Source of the DNA: Nitrososphaerota archaeon
Lineage (GTDB): Archaea; Thermoproteota; Nitrososphaeria; Nitrososphaerales; Nitrosopumilaceae
Length of the DNA: 64,000 nt
Direction: 5' to 3'
Assembly: GCA_016201435.1 (NCBI GenBank)
Contig: JACQCT010000005.1
Location: forward strand, 1 to 64,000
Made by a program: the position numbers and the translations under genes
Notes under the pieces: model-generated
The model's database searches: none
The model's input: the letters and a program-made list of their open reading frames with translations, nothing else
Told to the model about the DNA's origin: nothing
Shown here: piece by piece, positions 43,761-44,469 of the stretch
How positions within the stretch are numbered: the first letter of the stretch is position 1
Layout of the letters: every line of letters begins with the position of its first letter

Positions 43761-43834
43761 GGGATCGTGGTCTAGCATGGTATGATTCGGGTTTTGGGTA
43801 CCTGAGGTCGTCGGTTCAAATCCGGCCGATCCCA
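43761..43834 (+). tRNA. tRNA-Pro (anticodon TGG)
   Basis: Acceptor GGGATCG/CGATCCC, T-arm GTCGG-TTCAAAT-CCGGC, anticodon arm CGGGT-TTTGGGT-ACCTG, discriminator A; no intron; CCA not encoded. Confidence 0.93.
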
Positions 43835-43941: not shown

Positions 43942-44004
43942 AGGCTATGACATTAGCCTTGGAAACATCCTAAACCGCATCAGAAGATGCTGATAATGTC
44001 TACC
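43942..44004 (+). promoter_or_regulatory. Fluoride (crcB) riboswitch aptamer
   Basis: AGGCT-ATGACATT-AGCCT ... TAAACC-GCATC-AGAA-GATGC-TGAT-AATGTC-TACC. Pseudoknot GACATT(43949-43954)/AATGTC(43995-44000) covaries with the bacterial GAGGCC/GGCCTC type; located upstream of crcB. Confidence 0.87.
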
Positions 44005-44028
44005 TAATGAGAATTAAATGGGTAGACA
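43997..44028 (+). promoter_or_regulatory. Putative riboswitch expression-platform hairpin
   Basis: TGTCTACC(43997-44004)/GGTAGACA(44021-44028), perfect 8-bp stem that overlaps the 3' pseudoknot strand. Confidence 0.6.
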
Positions 44029-44082
44029 AATGACAAACAAAAATCAAAAAGAAAATAAATTCAACAGGGAAAGTGATTCAAT

Positions 44083-44469
44083 ATGAAGGGAATTGAAATT
44101 ATATTTCTAGCAGTAGGTGGATTGGCTGGAACTTTTCTACGATATGGAATAACAAAATCTCCTTTACTTCTTGGTGTATTACCTGTAAACGTATTAATCG
44201 TGAATATAGTGGGAAGTTTTATTCTTGGAGGATTCTCAGTTCTTTCACAACAATGGAATCTTGATGACAAGTATATGTTGCTAGTTGCAATAGGATTCTG
44301 TGGTGGGCTAACTACAATGTCATCCTTTGCGTTGGAAACATCTAACTTGATTGATAACAAACAATATTCTTTAATGGCAATTAACATAATCACAAATGTA
44401 GGTTTGTCATTAGGTTCTATATTTGGAGGCAGAGTTTTGTTAAGTGTCATAATTGGAGCATTAAGATAA
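44083..44469 (+). CDS. crcB: CrcB/Fluc fluoride channel
   Basis: GGLAGTFLRYGIT, VNIVGSFILGGF, GFCGGLTTMSSFALET. Confidence 0.93.
   Translation: MKGIEIIFLAVGGLAGTFLRYGITKSPLLLGVLPVNVLIVNIVGSFILGGFSVLSQQWNLDDKYMLLVAIGFCGGLTTMSSFALETSNLIDNKQYSLMAINIITNVGLSLGSIFGGRVLLSVIIGALR

Follow-up and report, generated by a model that had tools for sequence, protein, structure and literature searches.

The window, a stretch of 64,000 nt from a Nitrososphaerota archaeon, encodes a Fluc fluoride channel (CrcB) and, starting 1 nt past its stop codon, a DUF190 protein, and both lie downstream of a riboswitch aptamer (Table 1). A search of the genome returned CrcB in single copy, with named relatives in soil Thaumarchaeota MAGs and Candidatus Nitrosotalea, and a sole match to the fluoride riboswitch model RF01734, that of the window. 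This match, obtained with cmscan against Rfam, reaches 42.6 bits against a gathering threshold of 34 (E 1.9e-8); an Infernal search with RF01734 had been suggested in a preliminary description of this DNA. The elements listed there, i.e. P1, P3, the pseudoknot and the conserved segments, were all found in place on reading, and the crcB-DUF190 pair that it put downstream was recovered with Pfam matches for both proteins. With the match over threshold and these two genes behind it, the identification of a fluoride riboswitch stands. The P1 loop and the aptamer tail pair over about 6 bp (GACATT/AATGTC, and GGCATT/AATGCC in relatives) to give the pseudoknot, and the cmscan alignment shows the GGA/TCC stem between P1 and P3 as inserted with respect to the RF01734 model. 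Judged from sequence and position, this is a genuine fluoride riboswitch upstream of a fluoride exporter gene, and the window copy should bind fluoride.

Upstream of the aptamer match, a TATA-like box recurs at a fixed distance (about -21 to -16) in the major families, GC-rich ones included, and it stands out most from the background in the GC-rich family f4. From this spacing, the transcript is expected to begin close to the 5' edge of the aptamer and P1, and with crcB downstream the aptamer would lie in the predicted 5' UTR of a fluoride-resistance gene. A tRNA-Pro (TGG) gene on the same strand (43761-43834) ends 100 nt 5' of the aptamer, and the Rfam search also found an archaeal RNase P RNA in the window, farther from the aptamer than the tRNA.

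Table 1. Features of the fluoride riboswitch locus, in window coordinates.
Feature	Position	Strand	Basis
Probable TATA box CTTAAAAA	43912..43919	+	T/A-rich box conserved across families
Fluoride riboswitch aptamer RF01734	43934..44009	+	cmscan
P1 stem-loop AGGCT/AGCCT	43942..43959	+	read directly; RF01734 alignment
P1 strands AGGCT / AGCCT	43942-43946 / 43955-43959	+	read directly
5' pseudoknot strand GACATT, inside P1 loop	43949-43954	+	read directly
Small variable stem GGA/TCC between P1 and P3	43961..43970	+	cmscan alignment; relatives' sequences
P3 stem-loop GCATC-AGAA-GATGC	43977..43990	+	read directly; RF01734 alignment
P3 strands GCATC / GATGC	43977-43981 / 43986-43990	+	read directly
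Conserved TGAT	43991-43994	+	read directly
3' pseudoknot strand AATGTC	43995..44000	+	read directly
Hairpin 5' arm TGTCTACC(TA) = TGTCTACCTA	43997..44006	+	folding, shuffles, relatives
Conserved TACC	44001-44004	+	read directly
Hairpin 3' arm (TG)GGTAGACA = TGGGTAGACA, directly 5' of start codon	44019..44028	+	folding; conserved in relatives
Leader ORF, 18 codons, MTNKNQKENKFNRESDSI and stop, TGA overlapping crcB ATG	44030..44086	+	G015, G305; 21-locus pattern
Weak Shine-Dalgarno-like GTGAT before crcB	44073..44077	+	complementary to G015 16S 3' end; kept in G015, G305
crcB (Fluc fluoride channel), 128 aa	44083..44469	+	PF02537 E 1.5e-22
DUF190 protein, 104 aa	44471..44785	+	PF02641 E 2.5e-20

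The 3' strand of the pseudoknot is also part of a second structure, a hairpin with eight perfect Watson-Crick pairs (43997-44004 with 44021-44028), as the preliminary description had seen. The pairing extends to 10 bp including one G-U, and has a predicted energy of -13.1 kcal/mol; in 5000 dinucleotide shuffles of the sequence downstream, its score was reached four times. The folding models used cannot represent the pseudoknot, and we blocked the pseudoknot strands instead. Blocking raised the accessibility of the 3' arm from 0.00 to 0.37, with UACC still able to pair with GGUA when only these strands were blocked, and left that of the crcB start region at 0.41.

We then compared the regions on either side of the aptamer among about 100 RF01734 loci with oriented flanks; of 400 Nitrososphaeria genomes, 87 carry the motif. 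A hairpin stem at p<=0.05 against shuffles was found in 46 of the 49 loci from the window's family (f1), where two arms (G028 and G187_41537) are probably misassigned by the longest-stem search, in 18 of 21 loci of a second large family and in all five loci of three smaller ones. From the shuffles and this recurrence we reject a chance origin of the hairpin. Among 75 loci, the mean stem score is 20.9 with the locus's own downstream sequence and 17.9 (sd 0.33) when downstream sequences are swapped. Three loci have altered tails, and each of them pairs better with its own downstream sequence than with any of the 74 others: the unusual tails TGTCTACA, TGTCTCCAG and TGTCTACTCA are matched by the unusual arms TGTAGACA, CTGGAGACA and TGAGTAGACA. 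Families differ in all three strands at once (pseudoknot loop, tail and downstream arm), with GAC/GTC/GAC replaced by GGC/GCC/GGC, as would be expected of an RNA that alternates between pseudoknot and hairpin; independent covariation events in the hairpin are limited in number because the relatives share ancestry. Conservation and compensatory changes in several archaeal families thus bear out the mutual exclusion of the two structures that had been proposed from the window.

The hairpin is not of one type in all families. In f4, an aptamer sequence containing CCGCTCG pairs with CGAGCGG beside the start codon; nine of 10 loci show this pairing, over 8-11 bp, with weaker evidence per locus (individually p 0.01-0.10). 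The hairpin of f2 is not significant, and the deeper families f18 and f20-f22 have no common platform among the loci compared. Several Nitrosotalea and Nitrosopumilus crcB loci have no RF01734 match within the flank examined, and neither has the 86% complete genome of one congener of the window organism (G274). This last case would fit an aptamer that has decayed or senses another ligand, or a hairpin that serves RNA processing or stability with no switch at all. We regard this as very improbable, since the aptamer scores over threshold, keeps its conserved segments and adjoins a canonical fluoride exporter, since it is kept in the sister species of the window organism, and since the strands of the switch co-vary.

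How the hairpin might act is suggested by its surroundings. Archaeal intrinsic termination depends on T-runs, not on hairpins. The window hairpin is followed by A-rich sequence; that it has no U-tract behind it, a remark of the preliminary description, held on reading, and in 77 of 79 loci no run of more than three T occurs within 25 nt downstream of the hairpin. The combination of alternative hairpin and U-tract of the Bacillus cereus type is thus lacking, and we rejected a transcription terminator as the main reading. Fluoride riboswitches of bacteria do drive termination with the same shared-strand logic (PMC11077080), and the hairpin could attenuate transcription in the absence of fluoride as in B. 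cereus crcB, either as a terminator or as a trigger of factor-dependent termination. Yet we give attenuation little chance given the scarcity of T-runs and the phasing of the hairpin to start codons. Within the window's family, 34 of 49 loci have an ATG 1 or 2 nt downstream of the hairpin, and two loci outside the first set carry the same hairpin 4-5 nt before an ATG. Start codon phasing, A-rich and T-run-poor downstream sequence and the position of the TATA box together fit control of translation and not of termination. The mechanism, which the preliminary description had called unclear, is in this way narrowed toward translation initiation by the adjacent start codon and the near absence of T-tracts.

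In the window, the start codon in question is not that of crcB. From the end of the hairpin to the crcB ATG there are 54 nt, in line with the approximately 55 nt first given. Between them, an ATG that had been overlooked lies at 44030, with a single base separating it from the hairpin. This ATG opens an ORF of 18 codons whose stop overlaps the crcB start as ATGA (44083-44086). Taken alone, the window leader is not significant, as some 60% of shuffles of its A-rich interior give an in-frame stop at -4. Two congeners, G015 and G305, have leaders of the same length, frame and overlap that differ by 3-4 residues. The substitutions show no concentration at third positions but are scattered across the codon, so that the peptide itself is not evidently selected. 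A wider set of 21 loci has a short ORF between hairpin and gene. There the leader overlaps the next start at exactly -4 in 12 loci (3.3 expected), the short ORF with NUGA overlap of a uORF relay, and it ends within -4 to +1 of it in 17 (3.9 expected) and outside this range in 4. The genes behind these leaders are unrelated: crcB, a Na+/H+ exchanger (PF00999), the archaeal TFIIB homologue TFB, a TIR-domain protein. We found no support for a conserved cis-acting leader peptide, as what recurs among the leaders is limited to their A-rich start and the stop/start overlap. In G130 and G117, the first gene has 390 codons and overlaps crcB by ATGA; in G159, a leader of 23 codons corresponds to the first 16 or so and the last codons of that gene, with the same overlap. 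We read the G159 leader as a probable internal deletion that kept only the start and the coupling, and the window leader (MTNKNQK vs MNTKNQK) may have the same origin. Selection would then bear on a start gated by the hairpin and a stop coupled to the next start, rather than on the peptide.

Another scheme is that release of the hairpin alters ribosome loading on the 5' region and thereby switches crcB translation directly, crcB using its own GTGAT, 5 nt upstream of its ATG, with a leader that is incidental in the genus. The motif fits the 16S 3' end GGATCACCTCCTTA, taken from G015 as a pattern search did not find this end in the window's genome, and is kept in two congeners. In genera g2, g3 and g6 of the family, and mostly in the Nitrososphaera-like f3, crcB follows soon after the hairpin with no leader, and the lack of significance of the window leader on its own is also compatible with direct control. 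But leader ORFs with stop/start overlap recur far beyond expectation, and a crcB start that is 54 nt away and equally accessible in both states would not be regulated directly, while the arm beside the leader start does open. The latter difference favours control through the leader, and direct control of crcB appears unlikely, if less so than attenuation. As for the element being masked, a strong Shine-Dalgarno sequence within the hairpin arm was rejected, since the arm matches the 16S tail of G015 over only 3-4 nt; hence we prefer occlusion of the start region to classic Shine-Dalgarno masking.

We thus favour, as the probable though by no means certain mechanism, control of translation by an ON switch whose hairpin hides the start of the leader, crcB being reached by termination-reinitiation. 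When fluoride is absent, the tail UGUCUACC would quit the aptamer pseudoknot and pair with GGUAGACA. The resulting hairpin, ending one base before the leader AUG and so sequestering its start region, would block ribosomes there and leave little crcB translation. Fluoride stabilises the pseudoknot in the bacterial members of this riboswitch class (PMC11077080). Were it to hold the pseudoknot here, the GGUAGACAAAUG segment would be released and the leader ORF translated; ribosomes terminating at the AUGA overlap could then reinitiate on crcB and go on to DUF190. The weak GTGAT before crcB might aid reinitiation or allow independent starts. The comparison backs the aptamer, the co-varying hairpin, its adjacency to a start, the absence of a T-tract and the leader's stop/start overlap; that this copy binds fluoride, that fluoride turns the switch on, that ribosomes are occluded and that translation is coupled into crcB is what these features lead us to expect.

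Other loci show what else may lie behind such riboswitches. Two Nitrosopumilaceae MAGs have 6 and 8 fluoride riboswitches in about 21 kb (G087:C37:50000-80000, loci L032-L033, and G187:C57:24000-50000, loci L034-L035). The genes of these 'fluoride islands' encode CrcB, DUF190, enolase, NADHdh-type membrane, MFS, ferritin-like, TIR-domain and plastocyanin-like proteins. TFB genes are found directly behind or in line with riboswitch leader ORFs (L033:8055-8957, +; L034:3051-4049, -; L032:5895-6914, -), suggesting a general transcription factor that could be induced by fluoride. Within the window's genus, both RF01734 copies found in G136 (L003, L031) precede genes of 368-aa Na+/H+ exchangers (PF00999), with a 13-codon leader ending in TGATG. 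In many Nitrosotalea-like genomes, the first gene after the riboswitch and before crcB encodes a protein of about 390 aa, apparently secreted or membrane-bound (L058, L059, L069 and L033:9413-10579); the L033 copy has no Pfam match, and a cupredoxin-like protein takes its place in other genomes. At another locus (L057), two divergent matches stand back to back, 104 nt apart (G333:C55:140243-140310, -, and 140415-140481, +). In L018, L024, L032-L035, L040, L043, L063 and others, A-rich codons open first genes that are unrelated to each other (MNKKNKN.., MKTKITK.., MTKNKK..), as if the riboswitch module might bring its own start codon and N-terminal tag. One might speculate, with somewhat less than even confidence, that the fluoride riboswitch of Nitrososphaeria is a portable translation-start module, in which an aptamer and a co-varying occluder hairpin are joined to a start codon with A-rich codons behind it, and which gates a dispensable leader cistron and reaches its target (crcB, Na+/H+ exchanger or TFB) by termination-reinitiation.

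Parts of this picture are already known, namely the aptamer class, its occurrence in archaea (PMC2864571) and an archaeal translational fluoride riboswitch. The window shares with the RF01734 crcB motif P1, P3, the pseudoknot, the conserved segments, the crcB target and the use of the 3' pseudoknot strand in an alternative hairpin, but this hairpin is no terminator and stands before a start codon, and P1 and P3 are separated by an extra small stem. In Pseudomonas syringae and Burkholderia pseudomallei the fluoride riboswitches, which served as translational controls in PMC13273304, belong to the same aptamer class and also act without termination, but they are bacterial. Closest in domain is the fluoride-responsive riboswitch of the archaeon Thermococcus kodakarensis (Speed et al. 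2018), described as (presumably) translational in the papers through which we know it (PMC8241225, PMC11077080), whose citing passages mention no leader-ORF relay. Such a relay has been shown experimentally for the B12 riboswitch of Mycobacterium tuberculosis ppe2, where the uORF uPPE2 passes translation on through an AUGA overlap by termination-reinitiation (PMC11260477). The two cases have in common a riboswitch and a short ORF with AUGA overlap to the next gene; yet ppe2 has a B12 aptamer and an OFF switch in a bacterium, whereas here an ON switch is predicted from sequence. A partial literature search found no paper on fluoride riboswitches of Thaumarchaeota, and the combination with a leader-ORF relay and the breadth in Nitrososphaeria look new.

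Natural archaeal riboswitches are nearly uncharacterised. Papers cite one validated native case, the T. kodakarensis fluoride riboswitch (PMC8241225, PMC11549558). The present comparison offers some 70 loci where a co-varying expression platform is linked to start codons and can be put to the test, and one lineage with a putative leader-ORF relay of a type so far shown in a bacterium. Concrete mutants could settle how archaeal riboswitches act without terminators. The source organism is an archaeon of soil with ammonia oxidisers among its relatives, and the riboswitch might provide a compact inducible module for ammonia-oxidising archaea.
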